NCBI GenBank assembly: GCA_029204225.1
Contig: CM055100.1
Span: forward strand, 32,389,645-32,453,644
Direction: 5' to 3'
Source: Diphasiastrum complanatum
Lineage: Eukaryota > Streptophyta > Lycopodiopsida > Lycopodiales > Lycopodiaceae
DNA length: 64,000 nt
Shown: positions 1,641 through 61,641 of the stretch, piece by piece
Layout: each line of letters opens with the position of its first letter
How positions within the stretch are numbered: the first letter of the stretch is position 1
The notes under the pieces: generated by a model
Databases searched by the model: none
What the model saw: the letters and a program-made list of their open reading frames with translations, nothing else
What the model was told of the DNA's origin: nothing
Position numbers and translations under genes: made by a program

Positions 1641-1803
1641 CATGGCCCCTAAAAACAGGGAAGGGGAGGATTAGCCACCTCTCATAGATGCTTCATGTCA
1701 TATTCATGACTGAGTGTAGCAGTAGATTGATGAACAGTATGCTCTACTTTGTGCAACCTTTCAAATCAAAATTTTACATTATTTTGCTTAATGTGCTACT
1801 AAC

Positions 1804-2052
1804 CTTCCGATCAGCCCTTGCATATCCAAAGTACGGAATAACAGCAGTGATATTCTTTGCTGAAGCTCGTCGGCATGCATCAACCATGATAAGCAGCTCC
1901 ATCAAGTTCTCATTAGCAGGTGGGCATGTGGGCTGCACTAGAAACACATCACATCCCCTAACACTCTCTTGCAACTGCACATAAATCTCACCATCTGCGA
2001 ACCTTTTTATTTTGATCTTGCCAAGCTCCAACCCCATGCAACATGCAATTTC
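1804..2052 (-). CDS. PRS: Ribose-phosphate pyrophosphokinase (PRPP synthetase), exon 3
   Basis: Encodes 83 residues of PRPP synthetase, which transfers pyrophosphate from ATP to ribose-5-phosphate to make PRPP for nucleotide, histidine and tryptophan synthesis. The conserved blocks [37 protein letters not shown] and [13 protein letters not shown] are all present and read cleanly, very close to plant PRS1/PRS2 as I know them. On the minus strand the exon begins after a ttttgcAG acceptor (2054-2053) and ends at a GTTAGT donor (1803-1798). Both borders are phase 0, matching the exon at 7172-7351. The catalytic flexible loop and the PRPP-binding DDIIDTAGT motif would lie in following exons. I find none in 1-1803, so the gene continues left of the window. 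Confidence 0.93.
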
Positions 2053-2690
2053 CTGCAAAAGGATTGAAAAAAATAAGCTTACAATGTTTAAAACTTTTGT
2101 TAAGTTAAACAAGGACGTGAGCATCCAATACAAACAGCTGAATGCTGAAGCAGCTTCCAAAAAGACCAATGCATATCCTTTGCAACATTTCACAACAACT
2201 TATATAAAAATTTTGATAGCACGAATATATCACAAACTTCTACCATTGTTCAGGTCAATGCTGGAGTTTGGATTCCTGGCACCTGCAAATAATAATACAG
2301 TCATCAGACTGTACTTGAGCAGACAAGCCTTGTGATCAAATTTCTGATCCTACCTGAAATGTAATGATTTGCTGTGCAGGCTCAGCACTTGTCTTATTTT
2401 TCCAGAACTTGCTGGAGGGAAAAATCAGGTCTAGTTGTGGAACTCAAAATTCCAGGAAATAATTATCTAAAAGATTTTATGTTAGCAGATGAAAATTCTA
2501 ACTTCACTCAACAAGAACATAACTTAAGAGAAAGCTTGTGGTTTTTCTGAGCAAACTTTCAGGGGCTACCACAACAGGAGATTATGGCTTGAGAAAATGC
2601 AGATGCCAGGTGGCGTTGCATAAAAATATTCGAAAACCATCTCACTGGCACTTTTGAAGATAAATGCTAGGACTGTTGGGATTGTGTCTG

Positions 2691-4299: not shown

Positions 4300-5985
4300 C
4301 CCCCTTAATCTAGATCCATAAATGCCTTGATCTCCAGACATAGAATAGCACAAAATTTCTTGTGTGCTTCTTGACTTAACGTATCATCTACATAAAGAGT
4401 GATGATGAAAAAGGACTGGTTGACAGCTTTGAAAAAAAATTTACAGTTTGCAGAGCTTGGTTGAAATCCATGATCAATCAAGAACGTGTTGATTCGAGGG
4501 AACCATGCTCTGGATGATTGCTTCAGACCGTAAAAAGCTTTATGGAGTTTACATACTTGGTCTCCATGACCATTACGAACATAGCCTTCTTGCTGAATCA
4601 TATAAATGTCCTCTTCGATGACTCCATTCAGGAATGTTGTTTGTACATCCATCTGGTGTACCTCAAGATCGGCTGTAGCAGCATATGACAGTAGCAATCG
4701 GATAGAAGTGTGCTTGACCACTGGGCTGAAGGTTTCGAACTAGTCGATATTGGGAATTTGTGAAAATCCCCTTGCCACGAGTCGAGCTTTTGATGCTACC
4801 ATCTACTTTGTATTTGATCTTGACGATCCATTTGCAGTCAATTATCTTTCTATCTGCTGGCAGCTTGGTGACAGTCCAGTTGGCTCCTAGATAGAGTAGT
4901 GAGCAAACTCATCAGTATAGCGGACAAGTTGAACTCTGATTCTTGTAGATCCTCTGGGTTCGGCTTCTGGTTGTGAAGTTCGATTTTGTGTTGGTTGCGT
5001 ATGTTGCTCCTAAGTTGCAGCTTCAATGTCGTCCTCTGAATCTGAGTGTACGGGCTGACTGCTTGAAGAAATATTATCAGTTGTCAGGGCAGGCATCTGG
5101 TCCTTGCCCTTCAAGTCAATAAACTATTCTTCAAGAAAAGCTACATCCCTATTAGTGAACACCTTACAGGTCTGAATATTGTATTGTCTGTACATTCCAT
5201 TAGAAGAACGGTAGCCAACAAAAATCGTCTTGAATGAATGCTCATCAAGTTTCTTTCTTTTGTCCTTTGGGACATGAGAATAGGTAGTGCATCCGAATAC
5301 TCTCAAATACTTCAATGAAGGCTTGGAGCCTGTCCAAACTTCATGAGGGGTTTGCTGTCAGGTAGTCCTTTAGTTGTACATCGATTCTGTACGTAGGCTG
5401 ATGTTGATACAGCATGTTGCCAGAATGATTTGGGCAACAAAGCATGTGAGATCATGCATTTGGCAGATTCGACTAAGGGTCATGTTCTTCCTTTCAGCCA
5501 GTCCATTCGACTGTGCAGAATAGGAAGCAACAAACTGTTGTTCGATGCCTGTGGCGGAAGAGTAGTCCTTGAATTCGTTTGAGATGTATTCACTGCCATT
5601 TTCACTCTTAAGGATTTTGATCCTTTTGTCTGTCTACAACTCTGCATTCTCTTTATATTCTTTGAAGAATCTAAAAGCTTCATATTTGTGCTTCATGAAA
5701 TATACAAATCGTCGTCTTCGACGTTTCGCTTCGTGTTGGCTTCTTCTTGTTAAACTTCAAGATTCGACAGTCCTGAATTTCATGGTTCGTTCGTTTGCAG
5801 TACTTGCAGAACAACTTCTTCTTGCTCTAAGCAGGTTGCAGACCCCGGATTCTGGTTCGAACTTTTCTTCAGCGACTGTTTTTGGTTGCCATCGCATTGC
5901 TTGGCAACTTTCTTCTTCGGATTCTTCTTCGGATTCTTGTTTGAAAACAGGGCTTGTGACTGGGCTTGTCTCATATGGCCAATCG
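4300..5985 (-). pseudogene. Copia-A: degraded Ty1/copia gag-pol
   Basis: Minus-strand order is gag zinc knuckle near 5830-5755 (CKYCKRTNHEIQDC, out of frame with its flanks), integrase core near 5690-5480 in broken frames, integrase C-terminal region at 5315-5124 (LRVFGCTTYSHVPKDKRKKLD), then reverse transcriptase at 4721-4305 with QMDVQTTFLNG, KLHKAFYGLKQ and the catalytic LYVDD box. Most of gag and the protease are missing, and RNase H is deleted so that RT runs almost directly into the polypurine tract. Zinc-knuckle spelling places it in the same family as copia-C/D. It sits in PRS intron 2, in the gene's own orientation. Confidence 0.85.
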
Positions 5986-7171: not shown

Positions 7172-7351
7172 CTGTGACAGTTGTAGATTGGCTGTTCCTG
7201 AAAATATCTTCAGTCGTGTATCAGGCTTTGACTCCTGAAGAAAGATATCTTGCATTGGTCTAGAGCCAACAACTCCACTCCAATTATGAGTTGGTATGAT
7301 GGGCAAAACAGGCCTTCCATTCCACGCCAATGAATCCGCGCCTTGACATCT
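7172..7351 (-). CDS. PRS: Ribose-phosphate pyrophosphokinase, exon 2
   Basis: This 60-codon exon contains the start of the mature enzyme: KPDTRLKIFSGTANLQLSQ near its end corresponds to the family's RLxIFSGTANPxLAQ block. The reading frame opens after a tttggtacAG acceptor (7353-7352) and closes at CAG followed by GTACTG (7171-7166), phase 0 on both sides. Splicing to 2052 gives [14 protein letters not shown], as expected for plant plastid PRS proteins. The first ~40 residues are poorly conserved linker/transit sequence. The intron downstream (7171-2053) is 5.1 kb and contains copia-A and other insertions. Confidence 0.88.
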
Positions 7352-10007
7352 CTGTACCAAAAAAAGACAATCTCAACACTGATCAGAATTGCAACAGATT
7401 CAAGTAAACTTTAAGAAACTACTAAATTTTTTTTGTTCAAGAGAAAGAGCTTAATCTTAGCGATTTTAGACAGCTAAGAAACAGAGATAGTTAACACGAA
7501 CTAAGTAAAAACTATGATGCCAACTAGATTGAGAAATAATGACTTGCAGAAAGAAATATTTTTTTCAACAGATGGGAGTCCTTGTTGCCCTGCCTACTTT
7601 TTGAGCACCACAGGAAACTTGATTGAGAAAAGGTCCGGTCCTAATTTCACAAATACAATGTAAAAGAGGGTCAACAAACAATCTTACTGTATCAGTATTG
7701 TGTGATCCCAGTTTCACTCCATCCATACCAAACCATACTAAAAATAATGGACATATAGTGATTGCAGCAATTGATTTGCTAGTTTACAAGTTAATGGCCA
7801 TGAAGTGAACCATATATTGCAACAGCACTAGTCAATTTTAAACTTTTGGGTCAATTATTTGCTTTTATACAACAGAAACCAAAATAGAAAGATCATTTTA
7901 AAATTTTAGTGTCTATAAATAAGCAACAAAATACAGTAGACATTATGTCATGACTTTGTCACAGATATGTGGCATTTTTAAAGGCTTGCCTACTGGGTTG
8001 GTTATACACTGATAAATTAACTGAAAGAAACAAACCATAGCTGGAAACATCCATTGAAAAGGTTCCACACCTAAATATATACTATTTATAATTTCTGGAT
8101 GCCTGAGACTATGTTGTGTTGCGTGCATTGTAATTTGTGCATGTGTCATGACTCATGAGTCAACTTTGAAGCATTCAAGTATGTACTAACTACTATCATC
8201 TATGGACTATCTTTTAAGTACTATAGCTTGTAAGTTACGATGAATCATGATTCATTAAATTGTAAATTGTAAATTGTAAATTGTAATCTGTATTTCAAGT
8301 TTCTGGTCACTGGTAAGTCGGAATTGGTCACGACTCACTACATGTGAACTTTAAAGCACTTGCCACTCAGCGTTGTGAACTAAGAACTTTCAATTCAGTC
8401 TTGTAATATGTATGAAGTATGGCAGAGTATCTAGTTTCTACAAGTGTATATAGTATGATCACCTATTTATGGGGTCCCATAGATGATAGGACCCAAATTA
8501 GGGCTAGGGTTTATAATATAGGGCTAGGCAATGGGCATTGGGCATCGACGTGTGATTGTTGACACGTTATCGAGCATGCAAACCCTCATGCGCTAAACTT
8601 CTTGCTCTCTTACAAGACTCTAAAGACGCTAATGGTCGTGTCTTTGCATAATTCCTCAATGCACCTGAGCATGATTTCTCAAGGGCCATAAGCTTTGTGC
8701 TGGCATGCACAGATTCTCACAACCTATCCATGACAATATCAATAATTGACTAAGGAAAGCGACCATACACAGTTTCTCCTCTTGAAATTGCATGCTTTAG
8801 TTCATTCTCATGAAATTGGATGTATCTACTTGGTACTAGTGTTTCTATCATGTCTAAACCCCCCAAAACCCATAGAAACACATTTTCAAAACAAAAAAAC
8901 CCTAAAAAAATTTCTTGTTTCGAACCTGAACCTCCCGTTTCAAACACGTTTTGAAATGACGTACGAAATGGACCCATGAAACATTGATTTGGAAGGCTTC
9001 TATGTTTGAGCAACCTATCTTTGAATCTATGTTTTCCCTCTTCTAGGTAAAGAAGGATTCGGAGCTTTTCCATCCCTCTTTGACGTCCCATGTGCCATAT
9101 CACTCATCGTATTGATGTACAGAGGTAGTTACTTTCATTGTAATGTTATTGCATCGTTTCCATTTTGATGTATCATATATGGCAATGCAATGTTACTTTA
9201 ACTTTTTTTGCTTTCTTCAACATAAAATGTGGTATCTATTAGCCACTTCTAATTGGGGTTTTCCTGCTTAAGATTGGCTTAACTTGTGAGGTTTGGCACA
9301 TGATATTTTGTGTTGTCAGAGCATTAGGTCCATGAATCATTGTGTTCAACATGAATCTCCTCAGGTTTCAAAAGATTATAGAAACTTTTTGCTAATTTCC
9401 TTGATTTTCAAGTTTTTGGACCATTTTTTTTCCACTTTTTGAGCATCATAATGAGATGTCATAATCAAATTTAATTTCCCATGGTGTAGGCCTTATCTCT
9501 AGCTTTGATTTGAATCAGTTTAGTTGAATTTCCACAAAAGGTACTTAAATACGTGCACGACTTTTTTTCCATTGCAATACTTGTAGAAAATCAACATTAA
9601 CAATGATGTATTTATTCATTCAATAGCATAACTAAATAAGCACTCATCACTAATAGAGAAAAACTTGTCACTCTATAGCAGAATGATTGTAGTTACAAGA
9701 AGCTGACAAATGTGAGGGAAAACTCTCTCCTATGTACAAAGCAGTCAGTGCCTCTCCACTTTCTAGAAATGAGTAGCTTGGGGACACTAGGCAGCAGTCA
9801 CAGAATACAAAAGGCCATGCATCAAGAGTCACTAGCACCGGAAAAAATCATTGGCCAATCACTCAATACTGAAGCTGTTAGAATTTGTCATGCAAATTCT
9901 AGATGGAGTTACTAGTCCTACTAGCACTCACGTAAACCAAGCATAGAGATTAAAGAGAAATCAGATTATAGAAGAATTGAGCAAAGCTCTAACACACTGG
10001 AATAATG
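7352..10007 (-). other. PRS intron 1, left part: no gene recognised
   Basis: This stretch is intronic sequence between the exon at 7172-7351 and the PLE region. It contains only short ORFs without recognisable motifs. It includes a 7-bp tandem repeat at 8257-8284, and near 9884-9907 a hairpin-forming agaatttg-tcatg-caaattct preceded by TGTTAG, which could be a degraded LTR end. Confidence 0.5.
8257..8284. repeat. (AAATTGT)4 tandem repeat
   Basis: Four consecutive perfect copies of a 7-bp unit lie inside PRS intron 1. Confidence 0.85.
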
Positions 10008-10063
10008 TATCTATTTGTGAAATTAGAATATATCCAATTTCACAAATTTATATAGAGAAGTCA
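10008..10063 (-). repeat. 56-bp hairpin/TATA repeat, left copy
   Basis: Identical over 56 bp to 17021-17076. It contains an 11-bp perfect inverted repeat (tttgtgaaatt ... aatttcacaaa) with an 11-nt loop and, on the minus strand, a CTCTATATAAA TATA box. The likeliest source is the core promoter region of a copia LTR. Confidence 0.6.
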
Positions 10064-10450
10064 GTGATGTCATAAGGTAAACCTTAGAAACAATATATGA
10101 GCAACTCAAATAGTCAAAGGAACTAAGTCAAAACAACAATAAAAATTCAATAAACAAAAAATCTTAGCCAAATAGCATTGCTTATGTCTCATCAGTACCC
10201 AAGCATAAGTTGCTAACTGGGTTTCGAAAGAATCCGGATTCTCTTGGGTAGACCCAGTGTTGACTAAGAAGCAAAAGACAATCAGTAAGAAGAAAGAAAA
10301 AATAATTATTATTTAAATAAAATGAGATTCAAAAATAGAATTTATAAATTAAATCTAGTTAAAAATAAAATAAAATAAAAACATAAAATGAAAACAAATA
10401 AGAACAAGGGTCATAATGTGTATACGAGTTACTAAAACAAAGACAAAATA

Positions 10451-11688
10451 CTAGAAACAAAGCGGGCTCCTTAGCTCCCCACTTTTCTGGATTCTATGAT
10501 TAATCATCTTAAACATACCATAAGCTGAAACACCAAAGATAAAACCAAAAGAGTCTAAAACAGTTCGAACTTTTCTCATGATTTTCTTAAACGAGTAACC
10601 CTTATGGAGTAACAAAATGATTAGATTGCTTGACTGGTCTACAAAAGCATCTCTACTAGTACAAAGACGAGAGAACTTGTATAATTGAGAAGTGATCACT
10701 CCATATTTAACAGAATCTGAAATATTTGTCAAGTTACTATATTTTGCCTGCAACCTTTTATCAAAAATATCAACCAATAAACCGGACCTACCCTGGCTTA
10801 TAGAAAGGTCTAAAAAATTGCACTTATCATCACTAGTTGTACGATTAAGTTTACATGCGTCTTTAGGATAGATTCCTCCACCAAAAACGCTAGGGTCTTT
10901 ATATACAAAACTACCAAAATTAGGAAGATCACGAACAAATGAGTCATCAATATATCTTCTAACATGAGTTGATTTATGCAATAAGATGGGACAAGTACCA
11001 CAAGAAACTAATCTTTGCACAAATTCAAATTCATAAGAGAAAAGATAAAAGTTAGCTAGATGAGCAGCACAATTAGTACCCCTGGGAATACCTATCGTTT
11101 GTTGAAAAAGCGAATCACCTAGAGAAATATGCAAGTTATCCAAGAGAAAGTGCAGCCAAGAACAAACATCTTCAGCATCAACTATTTTAGTAAATCTTTT
11201 CTTCTTTGAATCGACATCTTGATTTTTGTTCTTAAGCCAACAAAACTCAAAATGCTCTTTTCAACTTTTAAAGCTTTGCATCGAGTGTCCTTTAGTTTAT
11301 TGCTAAAAACATCTCGAATTAGCTTGTTAACACGAAACTTCAAATCTTCCAAATTGATTTTAGTGTTAAGTGTTGTGAAGTCATAGGTTTGAAGAAGCAT
11401 ACGTTGGGTCTTTCCTTCTAAAGTACGAGAGGAGTTGAAAAACTTTATTACTTCTATAATACCTACAGAATCGTTTAAAATCCAACTACAACTAACAGGA
11501 ACATCTGCATCCTTAAGTAAGTTTATCCAAAGTTCATTAATAGAAGGAAGCAACGCTTTGAAGCAACTACTTAGCCACTTAGAAAGGTCAGTCAACGTAG
11601 TTTTATAGGCTGCTGCAATAAACCTAGGCCTCTTAGGAACTTTATGAAATTCCATGCAGCACAAAGAAAAGGAAGATTTGGGTAACAA
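10451..11688 (-). pseudogene. PLE reverse transcriptase
   Basis: Motifs in order: VPKRPRFIAAAYKTTLTDL (fingers), WILND, motif A YDFTTLNTKI, motif B IGIPRGTNCAAHLANFYL with the following SYE, motif C RRYIDDSF (near 10955-10932) and NFLDLSISQGRSGLLVDIFDKR. The three catalytic aspartates (one in A, two in C) are all retained. Two frames are needed (11688-11182 and 11143-10451), with the break near 11180-11215. GIPxGTN plus YIDD with a telomerase-like fingers region distinguishes it from copia, gypsy and LINE reverse transcriptases. The product would copy the element's RNA at the nicked target. Confidence 0.88.
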
Positions 11689-11944
11689 TTAAAGTTCTAA
11701 GAATGACAAAAATCTTGATGATATTTTATTACACTCACAGTTGAAAGAGAACAAGCGTTATATGTTCCTACTGGAGAATGGACTTCATCAATAACGATTC
11801 CAAATAGAATTTCTTGCAAACAAATACAAAATTGTTTGAGCATTTATCCACATACAAAATGACAAAACGTCTATGAAACTTACGAAGAAGAACTTCCTCC
11901 TCATTAGAAAATGAAGTATCAATAGGACTCTTTCAAAAACAATG

Positions 11945-12931
11945 AGGGAAGGATTGATGTATCTACAGTAACAATATGACCTAAAGAAGGATCACAAAAC
12001 TTCAAAATAAAAAGAGTCACCACAAGAACAAGGGCTATTAAGGATAGACAACTTTTTCTTTTCTGAAACATTCCGACCAATATCAGCATAATTAAAGGCT
12101 TTTTGTCCTATAGTTTTAACATATTTCCAAGCAACCACAAGATGATTCCAAATTTTCTTCACACAAGGAGGAAGTGCATTCATAACTTCAGGCTTTCTAA
12201 GAATAGAGCTCAAACTAATTTTGTCAAGATCAGGTGAAGTAAAAATTGTGATGAGTAGATCTTTACTAGAGGTAAAACATTTAGTCTTAACATTAGCTAT
12301 GGATTTTATAAAGCGACTTAAAAGAGTTTTAAGCTGATAAAAATGAGAATGTGAAATACCTAGATCTTGACAAGACATATTATCTAAAGTATAGAGCAAC
12401 CGAAACAGGTTGAAACAGGTTCTTAGGATTGTATCTATTAAACATATCGAGGGATAACTTGCCCAAAGACATAACACGATCCAAATAAAATAACCTCCTT
12501 ACGTAAGCTCTATAAGCAAACGTTCTAGAGACAACATTATTACTAGGGGGCAAAAAGTTAGAAGTATTAAAAGTAGCACGAGGAGAAGGGAGGGGATGAG
12601 AAGGTGTGATCACAGCTTGCGGAATGTAGCAATCTGGAGGAGGGGATAGATGTTCTGGTATAGGCTTCCAAACTTTCAGACCATTGCGAACATAAGGTGT
12701 TATGTTTTTAGGTTTAGAGTGGGTTCTCCACAACATGGAAGTCTTTTTGGCAAAGTTTCTACTCTTTCGTAACTTGGACTTACCCTCAAGATTATAACCT
12801 CTAGGAAAAAAGGACTGAAGAGTTCTCATCCAAAAAAGTTCACGAAGCCATGCTACCTTGAAAAACTCTTTTATTAGAAAAATTTCCAGCAATGTGCTCA
12901 ATGGGAAAGACCCGAAAAGACTCAAAACCAC
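11945..12931 (-). pseudogene. PLE linker with CxC motif
   Basis: A region rich in basic residues and Ser/Pro (RRLFYLDRV, KKIWNHLVVAWKYVK) links endonuclease to RT and ends with SPCSCGDS near 12030-12015. A stop follows, but in the next frame FCDPSLGHIVTVDTSIL continues (about 12000-11950). The frame changes at a 10-bp tandem duplication, gaaacaggtt x2 at 12402-12421; the upstream and downstream frames agree if one copy is discounted. A short CxC linker is the hallmark of N-terminal-endonuclease PLEs. Its function is unknown; a zinc-binding or nucleic-acid contact is only a guess. Confidence 0.75.
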
Positions 12932-13471
12932 ATTTGGCTATAGCAGTATACAAAGGTTTTAATTCTTCTTTAGGAAACTTAGAGCTATGTACTCTTCTAG
13001 CTTCTCGAACATGTTCTTGAAAACGTACAAAAGCAGACCGAAAAGTTTGGCCAACATATACCATACTACTACTTCGTATGTTATAAATGACATAGATTAC
13101 TTGGGTGGTATGGATTGGGCTAAGAGGCCTAGAGGAATGCACATGTTTTTCTCTAAGACGTCTAAGGCGATTCAAAATTCTAATATGGTTATTCGTATAA
13201 TGAGTACTAACAAGCAAAGACTTAAAAACATACCATTTAATAGGAACTTCTCCAAAATTATGAAGTTTATTCAAATTACATCTAGACAAAAAGTTAAACC
13301 TTTCTCTATGATTTGTACCATTTCTACTAGCAAAACAAAGAGGTAAAGGGATGGAAGAGCAAACCTCCGAAGTGTCGAAAGTAGAAAAGCCAAAGATTAT
13401 ATTTTGAGTAGTCAGGCAATTGTTTAAGACCGGGCGCTCTTGAAGGCTATTGGTCCGAGGTCAAAATTAGT
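12790..13471 (-). pseudogene. PLE GIY-YIG endonuclease domain
   Basis: The GIY-like strand VIYVIYN (about 13101-13080) is followed 8 residues later by MVYVGQT (about 13064-13044), then FVRFQEHVREARR carrying the helix Arg, LYTAIAKCGFESF, and the IEH acidic position. The domain ends with RELFWMRTLQSFFPRGYNLEG, which lies in the overlapping frame of 12931-12380, so a frameshift falls near 12850-12880. This nuclease nicks target DNA to prime reverse transcription. No cysteine lies in the 40-odd residues before the GIY strand, so I do not see the CCHH zinc motif of most PLE endonucleases; Chlamys elements also lack it. Confidence 0.82.
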
Positions 13472-14060
13472 GTTGACCACACCCCTCGTTTGTTTAACAG
13501 GGCTGCTGTAAAGCGGTGAGGTACCTAAATAGGTCCGCTTGTTACACTCAAAAGATCACTGACAATAGCATGCAATCAAGTGCCCGCGACTTCTTGAAGT
13601 AGCACTACTTGACTCCCTCTCACACCGAAAGTCTTTCACGAAACTAATCGAACCAAGAAAAACTTGACTACAATTATACATGAAGGAATTTTTATTAATT
13701 ACTAAAGGAGAGAAGAAAATTGAAAGTTGAAAAGAAAGGAAGTAGAGAATCAATTAACCTAAAGTAAAAACAATTTTATAAATTAGACTTTAAATATAAA
13801 AAGTGGAGACTTAGAAGAAAACCAAGAAAAAGATGAAGGAACAACACAACTTCTTGAAGGTCATAAATCACAAACTCAAACAAACTTCAATCACTTTTTA
13901 AAATTAGAGCTAGGAAGAGGAAAGGAGAATATCTAAGAAAGCCAGAAGCAAGTGATTAACCTTAATAAGTAATACCCAAAAAAACAAAAAAAAAAGCCAT
14001 AAAATTATTATGAAACAACAAAAACCTTACCAACATGACATCGAGTAAGAGAAGTTACTT
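13472..14060 (-). other. PRS intron 1 between PLE and copia-B: nothing recognised
   Basis: AT-rich sequence with one short, unrecognised minus ORF (13753-13556). It may include the PLE 5' UTR. A 15-mer acactggaataatgt at 14082-14096 also occurs at 9994-10008. Confidence 0.4.
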
Positions 14061-14393
14061 TGATTAGTAAAATTTGAAGTTACACTGGAATAATGTTGTG
14101 GTGGGGCGCCAGCCTACACATATAGTTTCTCTAATCTATGTGAAAACCTAAAAGCCTAAAGCAAATACCAAAAGAGCAAAAGCTAATTGCTAAAATTACT
14201 ACCTATATTGGGTAAAGACTCAAGGTGAATTTCTAAGTACTAAAATGGATCCTAATCTAATATTAGTGCGCCCACCTACATGCATAAGCAATAAAAAAAC
14301 GAAGTTACTATATATAGTAATGGCCCCTATAATAGCACGCAGGCATGGCCAAAACTATCATTAAGGGGTATCAAATAAACATAATTCCTAACA
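14060..14393 (-). repeat. 3' LTR start of copia-B
   Basis: On the minus strand a polypurine tract (attaaggggag) ends at 14394 and is followed by TGTTAGGAATTATG at 14393-14380, a typical copia LTR start. A TATATATAG element lies near 14310. The lower boundary is unresolved because no complete second LTR is visible on the right side. Confidence 0.6.
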
Positions 14394-14394
14394 C

Positions 14395-16600
14395 TCCCCT
14401 TAATGTTTATTTTGTTACCTATTACTCCTAGAAGTTCTCTGAACTTCTGAAATTTTTCTTTGCCAAGTCCTTTGGTAAAGATATCTGCAACTTGCTCTTC
14501 CTTAGGACAATAGATAAGCTCCACTTCACCACTTTGAATCTTCTCCCGATTAAAGTGTTGTTATACTTCAATGTGCTTTGTCCTGCTGTGAAAAATTGGA
14601 TTTTTCGTCTTTGCTTTAGTAAGCTTACATCCAATATCATATGGTGTAGAAATAGGTTTGCACTCTGACATATTGCCTCTAAAAATCCATTCAGGAATGC
14701 ACTCTTCACATCCATTTGTTGAATATTCCATCCAAACTGAGTTGCCAATGATAAAACTGTCCTCTTCAATTGGTGCAAAAGTTTCTTCATAGTCAATCCC
14801 ATCCTATTGAGCATAACCTTTTGCCACCCATCTTGCCTTATGTTTATCTATAGAACCATCTGATTTGTACTTAGTTCTATAGACCCACTTGCATCCAATG
14901 GCCTTTTTACCTATAGGTAATCGAACAAGTCTCCAAGTCTTGTTCTTCATGATTGAGTCGTACTCCTAATCCATAGCTTTCCTCCAAATATCCTCTTTTT
15001 CAGCCTCTCTGAAAGTAGATGGATCCTTGGTTTCCAATATTGTGGCCATATATGCAAAAGGTACATCCCCATCTTCATGAAGATCTTTATGTCGAACCTC
15101 CAGTCGATCTTGATCTTCATGATGATCCTCTTGTTGATCTTGATCTTCATGTTGCTTTTCAAGTCTAGCTGATCTCCTAGTCCCATGTGTACTGGACTCT
15201 CCCTGTTTCAAAAAATAGATCCATGTCTTCCTAGAATAGTCATCCACAAACACCATGAAGTAACTTGCTCCCCCATAAGATTGAGTCCTCATAGGACCAC
15301 ACAAATTTGTATGAACAAGTTCTAGAACATTTGTCACCCTGAATGTACTAGGCGAAAAAAATTTCATATGATGCTTGCCTAAGACACAGCCTTCACAAAC
15401 CTTGTGATCAAAAACAACTTGAGGTAAACCTGTAACCATGTTGTATTTCCTCAAGACTTGTAGACTTTTGTAATTCAGATGTCCAAACCTCTCGTGCCAT
15501 AACTTACTCAATGATCCAATATCTGCAACGCTTGCATGATGATCCACCACCTGAGGTACAACCGCCCTGCAAGTATGCCCTCAGCTACTACTTCATTATC
15601 TTTCTTCTTGATGAGACATTGCTCTTCATCAAATTGCACCACCATGTGTTGCTTTGCAATAGCTGATACTGAGAATGAGTTTTTCTTGATTCCTAGTACA
15701 TAAAGCACATCCTTTATGTCTCCAATCTTTCTTGAAGGTAGTTGAACCTATACTTTTCCAACTTCTTTTATATTATATGTGTAGTTATCTCCCAACTTCA
15801 CATTTGACCCATCATCTAATTTTTGAAAATTAGATAGCCACTCTCGTCTAGGTGTCATATGCTTCAAAGCTCTTGAATCAATAAACCAATAGTCTTCTTC
15901 CTTTGAGAAGCCACCACCAGAAGATGTCGATGCCGTAAACAACTCAATAGTCTTTAAGATCCAAAGCACTCAATTTTGCATTAGATGCTTCTTCTTCTTC
16001 AACAAAATTCCCATCCTGCTTTTTCTTGAACTTGTTGTGCCAGCACTCCTTTGCATAATGTCCTGATTTTCTGAAAATAAAGCAATTCCCTTTTCGAACC
16101 ACTTTCTTTCCATCTTCTGATCGATTCGATTGATCTATCTAGCTGCTTCTTCTTCTTCTTCTTCCCTTTGCCACCCTTCTTAAAACTTTGTTGTTGCTTC
16201 TTTGCCAGGAATGCCTATTCCTTGAAATCATCCCTATTGACAATATTTTGTCGTCAACAAGATCCGTGACCGATTCACCGTCTCATACAAGTTCTTCAAA
16301 ATATCCCAAGCCTCCTAGGGTCTAGCAACATCTCTTATATGAGGTATGATCATATCTCTAACTGACAAGTTGATGATATGATGAGCTTTTCTTCTACGGC
16401 TCTGATACTCTCGCAACTCCTTGTCAGTATTAGGAGGTACATCGACAACTGTGACGATCTCCCAATATTCTCGATCCTGGAGAATATTTTGCATCTTGAA
16501 CTTCCATATATTGTAGTTCGTCTCATCTAGCTTGCTAGACTCTGGCAACACAGCATCGTTCAATCCTGCCATTATTCTGATTCGTAACAATTCTTAGCAA
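14395..16600 (-). pseudogene. Copia-B: internally deleted Ty1/copia gag-pol
   Basis: Minus-strand order: gag N terminus (16590-16315; NYNIWKFKMQNIL), a zinc-knuckle trace near 16110-16030, protease (15969-15748) in which the active-site DSG reads IDSRALKHMT, integrase (15708-14966) with CEGCVLGKHH, VHTNLCGPM and VDDYSRKTWIYFLK, a fragment of RT (14814-14665, QMDVKSAFLNGFLEA), and the RNase H tail EEQVADIFTKGLGKEKF (near 14500). The integrase core is cut after YFLK and fused to its C-terminal region. The middle of RT with the YVDD box is missing. Gly-to-Arg in the protease site and these deletions show it is inactive. Confidence 0.87.
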
Positions 16601-18292
16601 CCTAATTTTATAGCCTGATTTTTCAACAATCAGTATCTTGTCAAACTCAATCAAGATTTCCAATCAGTAGCCAAAAACCTTGCAAAGTTCTGAGATAGGG
16701 ACGAAATGCCCTTAATAGAACATAAATGCAACATGCCACTGCCAACCCTGATATTTCTTGTACCACTCTTGGATGAAGGTCAATTCTGCGCACTCCCTCT
16801 TGAAAAGACATCCATGCATAAAACCAAAGAGTATCTAACAATAAGAAATAAAAGATAACTTGTCCCAAATAGCAAGAAAGCCTCCATTTTGCATCTTCCA
16901 AGGACTAGCTAGGAAATTGGATTTAATGTGCTTCATCCACAATTGGTTCTAATAAAAAGATTCACGTTTCACACTAAACCAATAGATGATCCATGCAACA
17001 AAAAAATGACGAAATACTTATATCTATTTGTGAAATTAGAATATATCCAATTTCACAAATTTATATAGAGAAGTCAATAAAATAGGGTTTGGAAAGCCAT
17101 AAAGAGAATGACGTCACACCCAGTCTCTCATGCTAGCGTACCAAATATATTGAATGAATGGTTGTAAAGGCAACAAGAAAATTTTTAAAACACACCCTCT
17201 TGAAAAAGCCATTCAGCACAGATTGCCAAAATGAATTCTAAGCCCTAATTTTTCACCTACAGAAGGAAATAAGCCCTAAACAAGATTCACCTACTTACTG
17301 TAAATAGGGAGTGCATTGTCCTCTTAAAACTAACCATTGCTTGCTTCAGTTTATTTGCTTACAGATACAGCTATAGGTTAACAGTTATAAGAATTTACAA
17401 GCTGCAGTTTGGAATGTCTTTGCAATCAAGAGTTCGATCATTTTCATGTAGCAGATAACTAGCCTCTTGTGGTCAACATGAATAAATTGCAATTAGAACA
17501 GCTAAGGACAACAGCTCTTTTCGAATCTAAGCTGACTTAGCTTCATGATCTGCAAAGTGCTATAGTCTGATAGAAGCTAACAAATATAGATAAGATAAAG
17601 TTCAGCGAACAGTAACTAGTCTCACGCGACGGCACAATGTTCGGATAAATATGGTTTTCGAGTGATTTCATCTCTCACCATTCACCGCATCAAAGCATGA
17701 CTGTCAAGCAGGCCTACAGCAGACAGGACCAGCAAACAAACTTCTTGCACAATTGCACCGTGTAGTTGTATAACCAGTACATACGCACTTGCTAGAAACG
17801 TCTGATAAATCTTAAGTGCTGATATACATTGTGGCTGCCAGCTTAAAACTTTGAGTCATAATGTTTCATCGGATCCCCTTCATTTCGTTCAGCAAACAAA
17901 TCACGAAGTACTGATGCCGATGGTGACCCCAACTGCGCCAGCCTTATCTTCTTGTAGTCATATATTTTCTCACCGCCCTTACTTTTTTCTAGTTGTAATA
18001 ATTTCATTCACAAAATGTTTTCCTTGTGAACAACTATCGATCCCGTGGTATTATAATCGACAAGTGTTTTGAAATTGTGTAAGACGAGACTTCTAGACTT
18101 AATGGATGTTATATGTTGCGTTGTGAATCAAGTTTTTTGAGCAAGCAGAAAATACACTCTCCAGAACATGATCTGAACCAAGATATCATTGACACTTAGT
18201 CAAACTAAATCCAACACTGAAAAGTGCCATATTAAGATCTAGCAAGTATTTTTTCAAACAGAGCCAAATAATAGAAGCGGAAGCGAACTCAC
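16601..18292 (-). other. PRS intron 1, right part
   Basis: Contains the leader/5' LTR remnant of copia-B (up to about 17080) and then unremarkable intronic sequence up to the exon 1 donor at 18292. No further coding or RNA gene is recognisable. Confidence 0.5.
17021..17076 (-). repeat. 56-bp hairpin/TATA repeat, right copy
   Basis: Identical to 10008-10063. On the minus strand the TATA box lies about 480 bp upstream of the copia-B gag start (16590), a plausible place for that element's 5' LTR promoter. The sequence on either side does not align with the left copy. Confidence 0.55.
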
Positions 18293-59745: not shown

Positions 59746-60290
59746 ATTTACTTATAGTTGATTTATTACAATTAGGGTTAGGATTTGAATTTTAGGGTCA
59801 TGGTCTAAAATATAGGCTTGGGGATCATAAAATAGCCATGTAGTGAGCTAATTCACTTATAGTTGATTTGCTATAGTAAGGGTTAGGATTTGAATCTTAG
59901 GGTTATGGTATGAATTTTAGGGTTTGGGGATCATAAGATAGCCTATATTGAGCTGATTTACTTATAGCTAATTTGTTACAATTAGGGTTAGGGTTTAAAC
60001 TATAGGGTGAAGGACTAAATTTTAGGGTTCGGGGATCATAAAATAGCCATGTAATGAGTTTATTTAGTTATAGTCGATTTGTTAAAGTTAGGATTAAGAC
60101 AACATGTGTTTGGACATGTTGATGTGGCACGACACATGTCGTGCACATATTCATCGGTGGTATGTATACCATCTCCGTGTTAAGCGCGTATTGGTCGACT
60201 AAACTTTTTCCAAAATAGTGAGAACATATCATATTAGGTGAGAGTTATAGGGTTAAGGCCTAAATTTTAGGGTTTGGGGAGCCATATAGT
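59746..60290. repeat. 105-bp tandem array with a palindrome-bearing interruption
   Basis: Units begin with cttatag(t)tgattt at 59751, 59856, 59961 and 60066, exactly 105 bp apart, and contain attagggttagg and ttagggtt.ggggatcataa.atagcc. The fourth unit is interrupted from about 60104 to 60235 by unrelated sequence with two palindromes (gcacgacacatgtcgtgc at 60127-60144; tggtatgtatacca at 60158-60171). It resumes at about 60240. The array ends at the HARBI1-like gene's 5' side. Confidence 0.88.
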
Positions 60291-60363
60291 GAGGTGTTGG
60301 GGTTGGAGAGGGAGAGAGATGTGGTTGTTTTTTATTTTCTCTGATTTTGGAGATCGAAGGCAG

Positions 60364-61641
60364 ATGGATCCCGCTCTGGTGCTCATGCTCTCGAGCTTGC
60401 TGCAGCTACAACAATCCCTCGACGCTCCCCTTCTCGCAACGTCCACCACGAGCGCTCCCCTGCTCTTCTTCACACTCATGGCCGTGCTCGCACATGCAGT
60501 GGCCATCTTTTCCCAGGAAGAGGAGGATGAGGAGGAGGCCCATTCCCCCTCTGTTCTGCCGGCTGACAACCCTTTCCGCAGCCTCATCAACGAGCAAATG
60601 TGGTGTCTGGATCCAAGCATTCGTGACAGCCAGTGGCGCCGTGCCTACGGGATCTCATATCCCCTGTTTATTACTCTCGTTGAGGAATTGAAACCCTATA
60701 TCAATGGCAAGACTTGCAATATGCTCCCTGATACTGCTGTTGCCATGGTTCTTTACAGGCTTGCTCATGGACACAGCGTCAGAAGGCTGGCTGCAGAGTA
60801 TGGTACACGACCACGGCTGATCACAAGAATCGCAAATTTAGTCACCAAAGCTCTGGCAACAAAGCTTTACCCTAAGTACGTAACTATACCATGTGGTCAG
60901 GGGCTTTTGAAGACCATCGAGGGTTTCAAAGAGCTCACAGGTCTTCCTAACATGTGTGGTGCTATTGATGGCAGCCACATTAAGATCCATAAGCGGCCCG
61001 AAAAGGAGTATAATCCAGCGCATTATCGATGCCGGCATCACTTTTTTGCAGTTCTTCTTCAGGCTGTTTGCGATCATAGGAAGGTTTTCTGGGATGTGTG
61101 TGTCAAGGCTCCGGGGGCAACGGAAGATGCAACTCACCTGAGAGAGAGTTCACTCTTTAAGAAATTGATTGGTGGTGAGATCCTCCGTGATTCGGTTGTC
61201 AGCATCAGAGGGAACCACATCAGGCCTTATATTGTGGGGGACTGGAGCTACCCCATCTTGTCATTTTTACTTACTCCTTTCACTGCCAGAGGAACCGGAA
61301 CATTAGGGCAAAATCAGTTTGATGCATGTCTGATGAAGGGGAGGACAGTTATTGAGGAAGCTTTGGGAATGCTTAAAGGCAGGTGGCAAATTTTGCAAAA
61401 TCTCAATGTGAGCCTGAATCATGCCCCTCAGACGATTGTTGCCTGCTGTGTTTTACACAACATGTGTATTCTCACAGGGGAGCCTGAATTAGCAATCTTT
61501 CCTGAACCTTGTGAGAATGGGCCGGTCGCAAAACCCCTGGATGGTGAAAAGTCCTTCAATTACTTTGGGGAAAGCACCAGACAAGTCTTGCTTGAGGAGT
61601 TGCAGGAGAAACAGCAACAGCAGCACTTCTTATTTCAATAA
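60364..61641 (+). CDS. HARBI1/ALP1-like nuclease (PIF/Harbinger-derived)
   Basis: An uninterrupted 425-codon, single-exon ORF with higher GC than its surroundings. After a hydrophobic Leu-rich N terminus (residues 1-50) and an acidic stretch (51-60) comes a helical region (HSVRRLAAEYGTRPRLITRI, 137-156) and the DDE_Tnp_4 domain: CGAIDGSHIKIHK with Asp202, APGATEDATHL with Asp255, VGDWSYPILSFLLTPF (291-306), and VIEEALGMLKGRW with the Glu at 331/332, then VACCVLHNMCIL. All catalytic positions seem filled. Plant members are mostly domesticated and some (ALP1) act with Polycomb complexes. I chose ATG at 60364 (MDPALVLMLSSLLQL), which fits relatives; an in-frame ATG at 60274 would add 30 residues. 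No TIRs or MYB-like partner seen. Confidence 0.88.
   Translation: MDPALVLMLSSLLQLQQSLDAPLLATSTTSAPLLFFTLMAVLAHAVAIFSQEEEDEEEAHSPSVLPADNPFRSLINEQMWCLDPSIRDSQWRRAYGISYPLFITLVEELKPYINGKTCNMLPDTAVAMVLYRLAHGHSVRRLAAEYGTRPRLITRIANLVTKALATKLYPKYVTIPCGQGLLKTIEGFKELTGLPNMCGAIDGSHIKIHKRPEKEYNPAHYRCRHHFFAVLLQAVCDHRKVFWDVCVKAPGATEDATHLRESSLFKKLIGGEILRDSVVSIRGNHIRPYIVGDWSYPILSFLLTPFTARGTGTLGQNQFDACLMKGRTVIEEALGMLKGRWQILQNLNVSLNHAPQTIVACCVLHNMCILTGEPELAIFPEPCENGPVAKPLDGEKSFNYFGESTRQVLLEELQEKQQQQHFLFQ

Follow-up and report, generated by a model that had tools for sequence, protein, structure and literature searches.

The insertion in the window and its coding pieces

The DNA analysed here, referred to as the window, is a stretch of 64,000 nt from Diphasiastrum complanatum, and all the coordinates given are positions within it. 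On its minus strand lies an insertion of a Penelope-like element (PLE), hereafter the window copy, the features of which are collected in Table 1 together with those of the surrounding DNA. The coding part of this copy consists of five overlapping open pieces, and frameshifts break up the succession of a GIY-YIG endonuclease (EN), a CxC motif and a reverse transcriptase (RT). This order was already proposed in the initial annotation, and the same order was obtained when the motifs were recomputed across the five frames. The EN and CxC motifs are located where they had been placed, whereas motif A of the RT is found slightly upstream of the 11.3 kb reported for it; likewise, the span from 10451 to 13471 that had been assigned to the element corresponds to its coding part, but the whole insertion is larger. 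The glutamate of the EN is likely the one present in the RELFW motif, and its asparagine the one in GYNLEG.

Table 1. Features of the PLE insertion and of the neighbouring DNA in the window
Feature	Positions	Strand	Details
Whole PLE insertion	10009-14081	-	Ends common to other copies and exact flanking duplication; base 10008 ambiguous with the duplication
Target-site duplication at element 5' end	14082-14096		Exact 15-mer ACATTATTCCAGTGT
Target-site duplication at element 3' end	9994-10008		Exact 15-mer ACATTATTCCAGTGT
Loss of about 316 nt	13646-13647	-	Comparison of copies; L039 and five further copies retain the segment
EN first half, open piece	12843-13460	-	VIYVIYN 13100-13080, YVGQT 13058-13044; GIY motif without a preceding ATG
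EN end and part of linker, open piece	12383-12937	-	RELFW 12844-12830, GYNLEG 12799-12782; homologous L039 frame
Linker open piece with CxC	11995-12498	-	CSC from 12030
Loss of about 200 nt relative to the other copies examined	11921-11924	-	4-nt overlap at the junction
RT motif 1/2 and motif A, open piece	11185-11688	-	RFIAAA 11625-11608; DFTTLNT 11382-11362
RT motifs B and C and C-terminal part, open piece	10454-11260	-	GTNCA 11080-11066; YIDD 10954-10943
3' UTR	10009-10453	-	Same stretch is the upstream pseudo-LTR in tandem copies elsewhere
3'-terminal palindrome	10008-10052	-	Arms 10008-10027 and 10033-10052; fold z = -3.06
Copia LTR, 5' part	14082-14393	-	Joining of the flanks
Copia LTR, 3' part	9876-9993	-	Joining of the flanks
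Decayed Copia coding sequence	14431-15580	-	Pieces of gag_pre-integrs, rve and RVT_2
Presumed RPPK exon, 3' of the insertion with respect to the gene	7172-7345	-	By eye and translation
Open piece with the next presumed RPPK exon	1777-2199	-	Pribosyltran_N, E = 1.4e-40

An uninterrupted copy joins the endonuclease and the reverse transcriptase

A search of the D. complanatum genome (1.745 Gb, 5176 contigs) with the RT piece revealed, at L039:1588-4800 on the minus strand, a single open frame of 1071 codons with no stop. In this frame the GIY-YIG motif occupies residues 115–130 and is followed by E201, N217, a CSC at residues 468–470, and the RT motifs A, B and C at residues 751, 853 and 896, respectively. 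The claim that the EN is part of the same element was thus settled by the less decayed copy that was sought genome-wide, given that one frame holds GIY-YIG, CxC and RT. The alternative would be two unrelated neighbours, i.e., a remnant of a GIY-YIG homing endonuclease next to a PLE that lacks an endonuclease, or next to some other element with an RT. The broken frames of the window copy and the fact that the profiles matched by the EN are those of homing endonucleases would fit this alternative; nevertheless, the uninterrupted frame of L039 already refutes it, and its probability is negligible. It is also contradicted by the presence of both EN and RT between a single pair of target-site duplications, and by the distribution of the matches in the genome, since a comparison of the 30 best EN rows with 65 RT rows gave, for 15 of the former, an RT row 1.0–2.7 kb downstream on the same strand (no such partner was among these 65 for the remaining 15). 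The motif order is therefore above chance, because it is fused in the L039 frame and recurs in other copies of what we regard as one element.

Altogether, at least 160 match rows were obtained with the RT piece (143 of 3536 candidates scored) and at least 159 with the EN piece (150 of 564 candidates scored); some of these rows are duplicated and others come from haplotig contigs or split copies, and the counts set a minimum for the number of places. The copies of the family are dispersed over the D. complanatum genome. Among them, E201 and N217 are each kept in 25 of 26 copies, the two cysteines of CxC in 30 and 34 of 35, the aspartate of motif A in all 29, and the aspartates of YIDD in 32 and 28 of 33, a retention that does not amount to independent conservation, because the copies are closely related. 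Residue 200 is a histidine in L039 versus an arginine in 18 of 26 copies; for this reason the L039 frame is described here as open, and it need not be functional. Divergence from this frame ranged from 1.9 to 9.4% over 58 loci (59 rows including L011, the locus of L039 itself, several of them being haplotigs or the same insertion), with no excess at third positions. The absence of codon-position bias points to decay once the copies had inserted, and cannot serve to demonstrate that the frame was selected. As judged from the sequences of its copies, the history of the family is one of bursts followed by neutral decay. In neither L039 nor the window copy is the GIY motif preceded by an ATG in frame; the earliest methionine of the frame is residue 126 in L039, inside the EN core, and residue 133 of the corresponding piece in the window copy.

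Ends of the insertion, target-site duplications and lost segments

A comparison of 62 loci placed the ends of the family at positions equivalent to about 14075 and 10008 of the window. Target-site duplications were detected in three of the four insertions tested, with lengths of 15 bp in the window copy, 12 bp in L098, where the whole tandem is flanked, and 10 bp in L100, where the duplication was recognized by eye; no clear duplication was seen in L099. As compared with the tandem copies described below, the window copy is truncated at its 5' end, and does not have the 120-nt leader. The larger of its two internal losses corresponds to a segment that was considered as a spliced intron, a possibility that was rejected given that its borders are not GT-AG. 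A fragment of the window copy, identical over 211 residues (100%), is present on contig C3587, which is probably a haplotig. Apart from the insertion itself, a lone piece of 56 nt on the minus strand at 17021-17076 is identical to the 3' terminus of the element (10063-10008), with no duplication seen around it.

Partial tandems and the 3' untranslated region

In 9 of the 30 EN loci, the 3' UTR of the element also precedes its 5' end in the same orientation, forming a partial tandem or pseudo-LTR, an arrangement that has been described for PLEs (PMC8969392, PMC3846280, PMC11167929). The upstream pieces start at positions equivalent to 10288, 10306, 10388, 10430, 10455, 10458, 10461, 10462 and 11080 of the window. 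Four of these nine starts (L043, L045/L100, L047 and L055) fall within 8 nt, from 10455 to 10462, at the stop of the ORF; this clustering suggests that transcripts, or the copying process, tend to end there. In seven of the nine tandems the 3' end is directly followed by the 120-nt leader and then by the 5' UTR. The two members of the pseudo-LTR pair differ by 2.9% in L100 (13 mismatches in 452), by 11 mismatches and 16 gap positions in 425 in L098, and by 70 mismatches in 1107 columns in L099.

Given that partial tandems do occur in the D. complanatum PLE, the order of the domains could be conceived as an artefact of a canonical PLE with a C-terminal EN (of the Dryad or Penelope type), in which a tandem array cut in the middle of a unit would leave the EN of one unit before the RT of the next. 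Several observations make this highly improbable: EN, linker, RT and stop codon share one frame, and in both L039 and the window copy the stop comes after the RT and is directly followed by the 3' UTR with its terminal palindrome; the junctions of the tandems connect the 3' UTR with the leader and the 5' UTR, and not the RT with the EN; and the EN does not have the two cysteines of the canonical CCHH motif. An RT followed in frame by an EN was not present in any of the loci read. An element with its EN at the N-terminus is thus the reading that we follow below.

The region of the 3'-terminal palindrome is the least diverged 50-nt bin of the last 900 nt of the element (1.6%), a value obtained with aligned ends only, which favours low figures. 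No hammerhead ribozyme was detected with Rfam between 9800 and 14500 of the window at E values up to 5, nor in 11 loci at E values up to 0.5. Hammerhead-like strings (GTC, GAAAC and CTGATGAG, with pairing arms) were noticed by eye in the 3' UTR at about 10262-10175 of the minus strand; this candidate was rejected, since its parts are in the wrong order, the region adopts a plain multi-hairpin fold (z = -1.56), and Rfam reported none. Folding of the conserved stretch that precedes the ORF (13440-13650) gave no support for a structured start element (z = -0.54).

The surroundings of the insertion

The flanks of the window copy join into an LTR of 430 bp (14393-14082 plus 9993-9876) that begins with TGTTAG and ends with CTAACA; this interrupted LTR follows a polypurine tract and coding sequence of a Copia element. 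In addition, the left flank recurs with 76% identity beside the L043 copy of the element. A matching 5' LTR of the Copia element was not found within the window. Since the flanks are a Copia LTR, the PLE sits in a transposon, and the earlier view that it lies in unique gene sequence has to be abandoned. The placement in a plant intron fares better: pieces of a ribose-phosphate pyrophosphokinase (RPPK) gene occur on the same strand, and the Copia element probably lies in an intron of this gene, so that the intron is retained as probable, but the sequence immediately around the PLE is that of Copia and is not unique. The first exon of RPPK may be near 18.3 kb, as guessed by eye. That the element is not in rDNA was borne out by a scan of 40 loci, for most of which the sequence extended no further than about 1.5 kb from the match, given that no rRNA match was detected near the PLE copies.

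Other mobile sequences were observed in the window. A second piece of Copia RT (RVT_2, E = 3.2e-35) is located at 4308-4739 on the minus strand, in the presumed introns of RPPK, and an open frame of 456 residues at 60271-61638 on the plus strand matches DDE_Tnp_4 and Plant_tran, as a PIF/Harbinger-like transposase.

Searches with profiles and structural models

The GIY-YIG profile of Pfam matched the EN piece of the window with E = 0.0028 (18.3 bits) and the EN of L039 alone with E = 3.4e-4 (21.3 bits), both under the cut-off of 22.6; no family was matched when the whole L039 frame of 1071 residues was scanned with Pfam. A PHROG profile of homing endonucleases spans both halves of the L039 EN (E = 1.4e-5), and the NCBIfam profile of a group I intron endonuclease matched the EN piece of the window with E = 0.0018, far below its cut-off. 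Residues 100–240 of the L039 frame contain one cysteine (Cys 170), and the EN core of the window copy likewise contains one, residue 177 of its piece; therefore, the EN has no CCHH motif.

For the RT part, no match was obtained in Pfam, NCBIfam or PDB. RT models of PADLOC matched near motif B with E values from 0.0009 to 0.04, and unrelated PADLOC models did equally well on the same proteins (SIR2, E = 0.0009; methyltransferase, E = 0.011). When the RT profile was compared with eight RVT_1 loci from the D. complanatum genome, the probability score was 0.2, no better than that of the reversed and shuffled controls. Since profile support for the RT is weak, the RT call rests on its motifs, their spacing, and the likeness to PLE motifs; approximately 76 residues separate the stretch of motif 1/2 from motif A. 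AlphaFold models of two pieces of the window, made with no alignment, were poor (mean pLDDT of 34.5 and 39.6).

Relatives of the L039 protein were searched for in viral and prokaryotic contigs, and none was found. The motif-B pattern occurred in 3 and 23 stretches, none of them with a tblastn match to the L039 frame better than E = 0.32. Plasmids scanned with the PLE protein gave no match, and the phages scanned gave one weak match to the EN (E = 0.008).

Relationship with known Penelope-like elements

The EN of canonical PLEs includes a CCHH motif, two residues of which are cysteines. Besides the position of their EN, PLEs with an N-terminal EN are characterized by an insertion in the fingers domain of the RT and by a bias for microsatellite targets. 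Within this group, Chlamys elements reportedly have an N-terminal EN without CCHH, a CxC motif, a C-terminal RT, pseudo-LTRs and no canonical hammerhead, and are said to be present in green algae, spike mosses and slime molds; those of spike mosses, not all Chlamys, are said to target rDNA. Naiad elements reportedly show the permuted order with CxC as well, keep CCHH in the EN, and reside in invertebrate hosts.

The D. complanatum PLE shows several features of N-terminal-EN PLEs, namely a GIY-YIG domain before the RT in one ORF, a CxC in the linker between them, pseudo-LTR tandems and no canonical hammerhead; all of these, as well as an EN without CCHH, it shares with Chlamys, from which it differs in that the spike-moss elements reportedly target rDNA, whereas none of the 40 loci scanned here shows rDNA. 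The resemblance to Naiad lies in the permuted architecture with CxC; in contrast, CCHH and invertebrate hosts are reported for Naiad, and the EN core of the D. complanatum PLE has one cysteine. Chlamys is preferred over Naiad because of the EN without CCHH and the reported host range. The window copy is very probably a dead autonomous retrotransposon, namely a PLE with an N-terminal endonuclease, most likely of the Chlamys type, and the D. complanatum PLE looks like a new family member of the permuted group already described. It is unlikely that it represents a separate, unnamed lineage of N-terminal-EN PLEs that is neither Chlamys nor Naiad: its dispersed targets outside rDNA, unlike those reported for spike-moss Chlamys, would agree with such a lineage, but the missing CCHH and the lycophyte host are what is expected of Chlamys, and nothing positive sets the D. 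complanatum PLE apart. The same doubt applies to a third, clubmoss lineage of permuted PLEs that would be dispersed and not bound to rDNA, with transcripts from the ORF stop of the upstream unit and a protein begun without AUG.

Taken as a Chlamys-type PLE, the element can be compared with others in the literature. Chlamys PLEs have also been described in Ectocarpus, a brown alga (PMC12477816). With Dryad, Penelope and Poseidon the D. complanatum PLE has in common the presence of GIY-YIG and RT in one ORF, the pseudo-LTR tandems, the AT-rich targets and the target-site duplications, which in Penelope/Poseidon-type elements measure 8–10 bp according to PMC3846280; in those elements, however, the EN is C-terminal to the RT, whereas here the RT ends the frame. 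The Poseidon element PAc also differs in having a hammerhead ribozyme (PMC11167929), and none was found in the D. complanatum PLE. The available part of a review on land plants (PMC9033089) names Dryad, the PLEs of conifers, and the EN-minus PLEs of Selaginella and conifers only. The latter are similar to the D. complanatum PLE as PLEs present in a lycophyte, but they have no endonuclease and are tied to telomeres (PMC12477314), whereas the element described here has an EN and occupies dispersed sites. No published N-terminal-EN PLE from a clubmoss was found in the part of the literature covered, and no priority is claimed; the name "Chlamys" in PMC10294476 refers to a genus of scallops.

A possible mode of insertion

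Copies of the element are often truncated at the 5' end, and complete insertions are partial tandems with their own 3' UTR upstream. A sequence of events can be proposed by analogy with a Poseidon element tested in vitro (PMC11167929). The upstream pseudo-LTR of a tandem would supply the promoter for RNA synthesis, and the RNA would be bound by the protein of the element; the GIY-YIG domain would then make staggered cuts or nicks in AT-rich DNA, and the RT would use the RNA as a template, starting at the cut end. Where copying stops early, 5' truncation may result, and where it continues across the border between the units of a tandem transcript, a partial tandem may be generated. The window copy would have been inserted in this manner inside the Copia LTR, and would have lost at least two segments afterwards.

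Significance

Elements of the permuted kind are relevant to the question of how reverse transcriptases resembling telomerase came to be joined to GIY-YIG nucleases; the picture of what PLEs are is left unchanged by the D. complanatum family. With its many copies, long open frame, tandems and target-site duplications, this plant family would widen the reported range of these elements in land plants beyond spike mosses. Such PLEs can also settle in dispersed sites, in this case a transposon that probably lies inside a gene.
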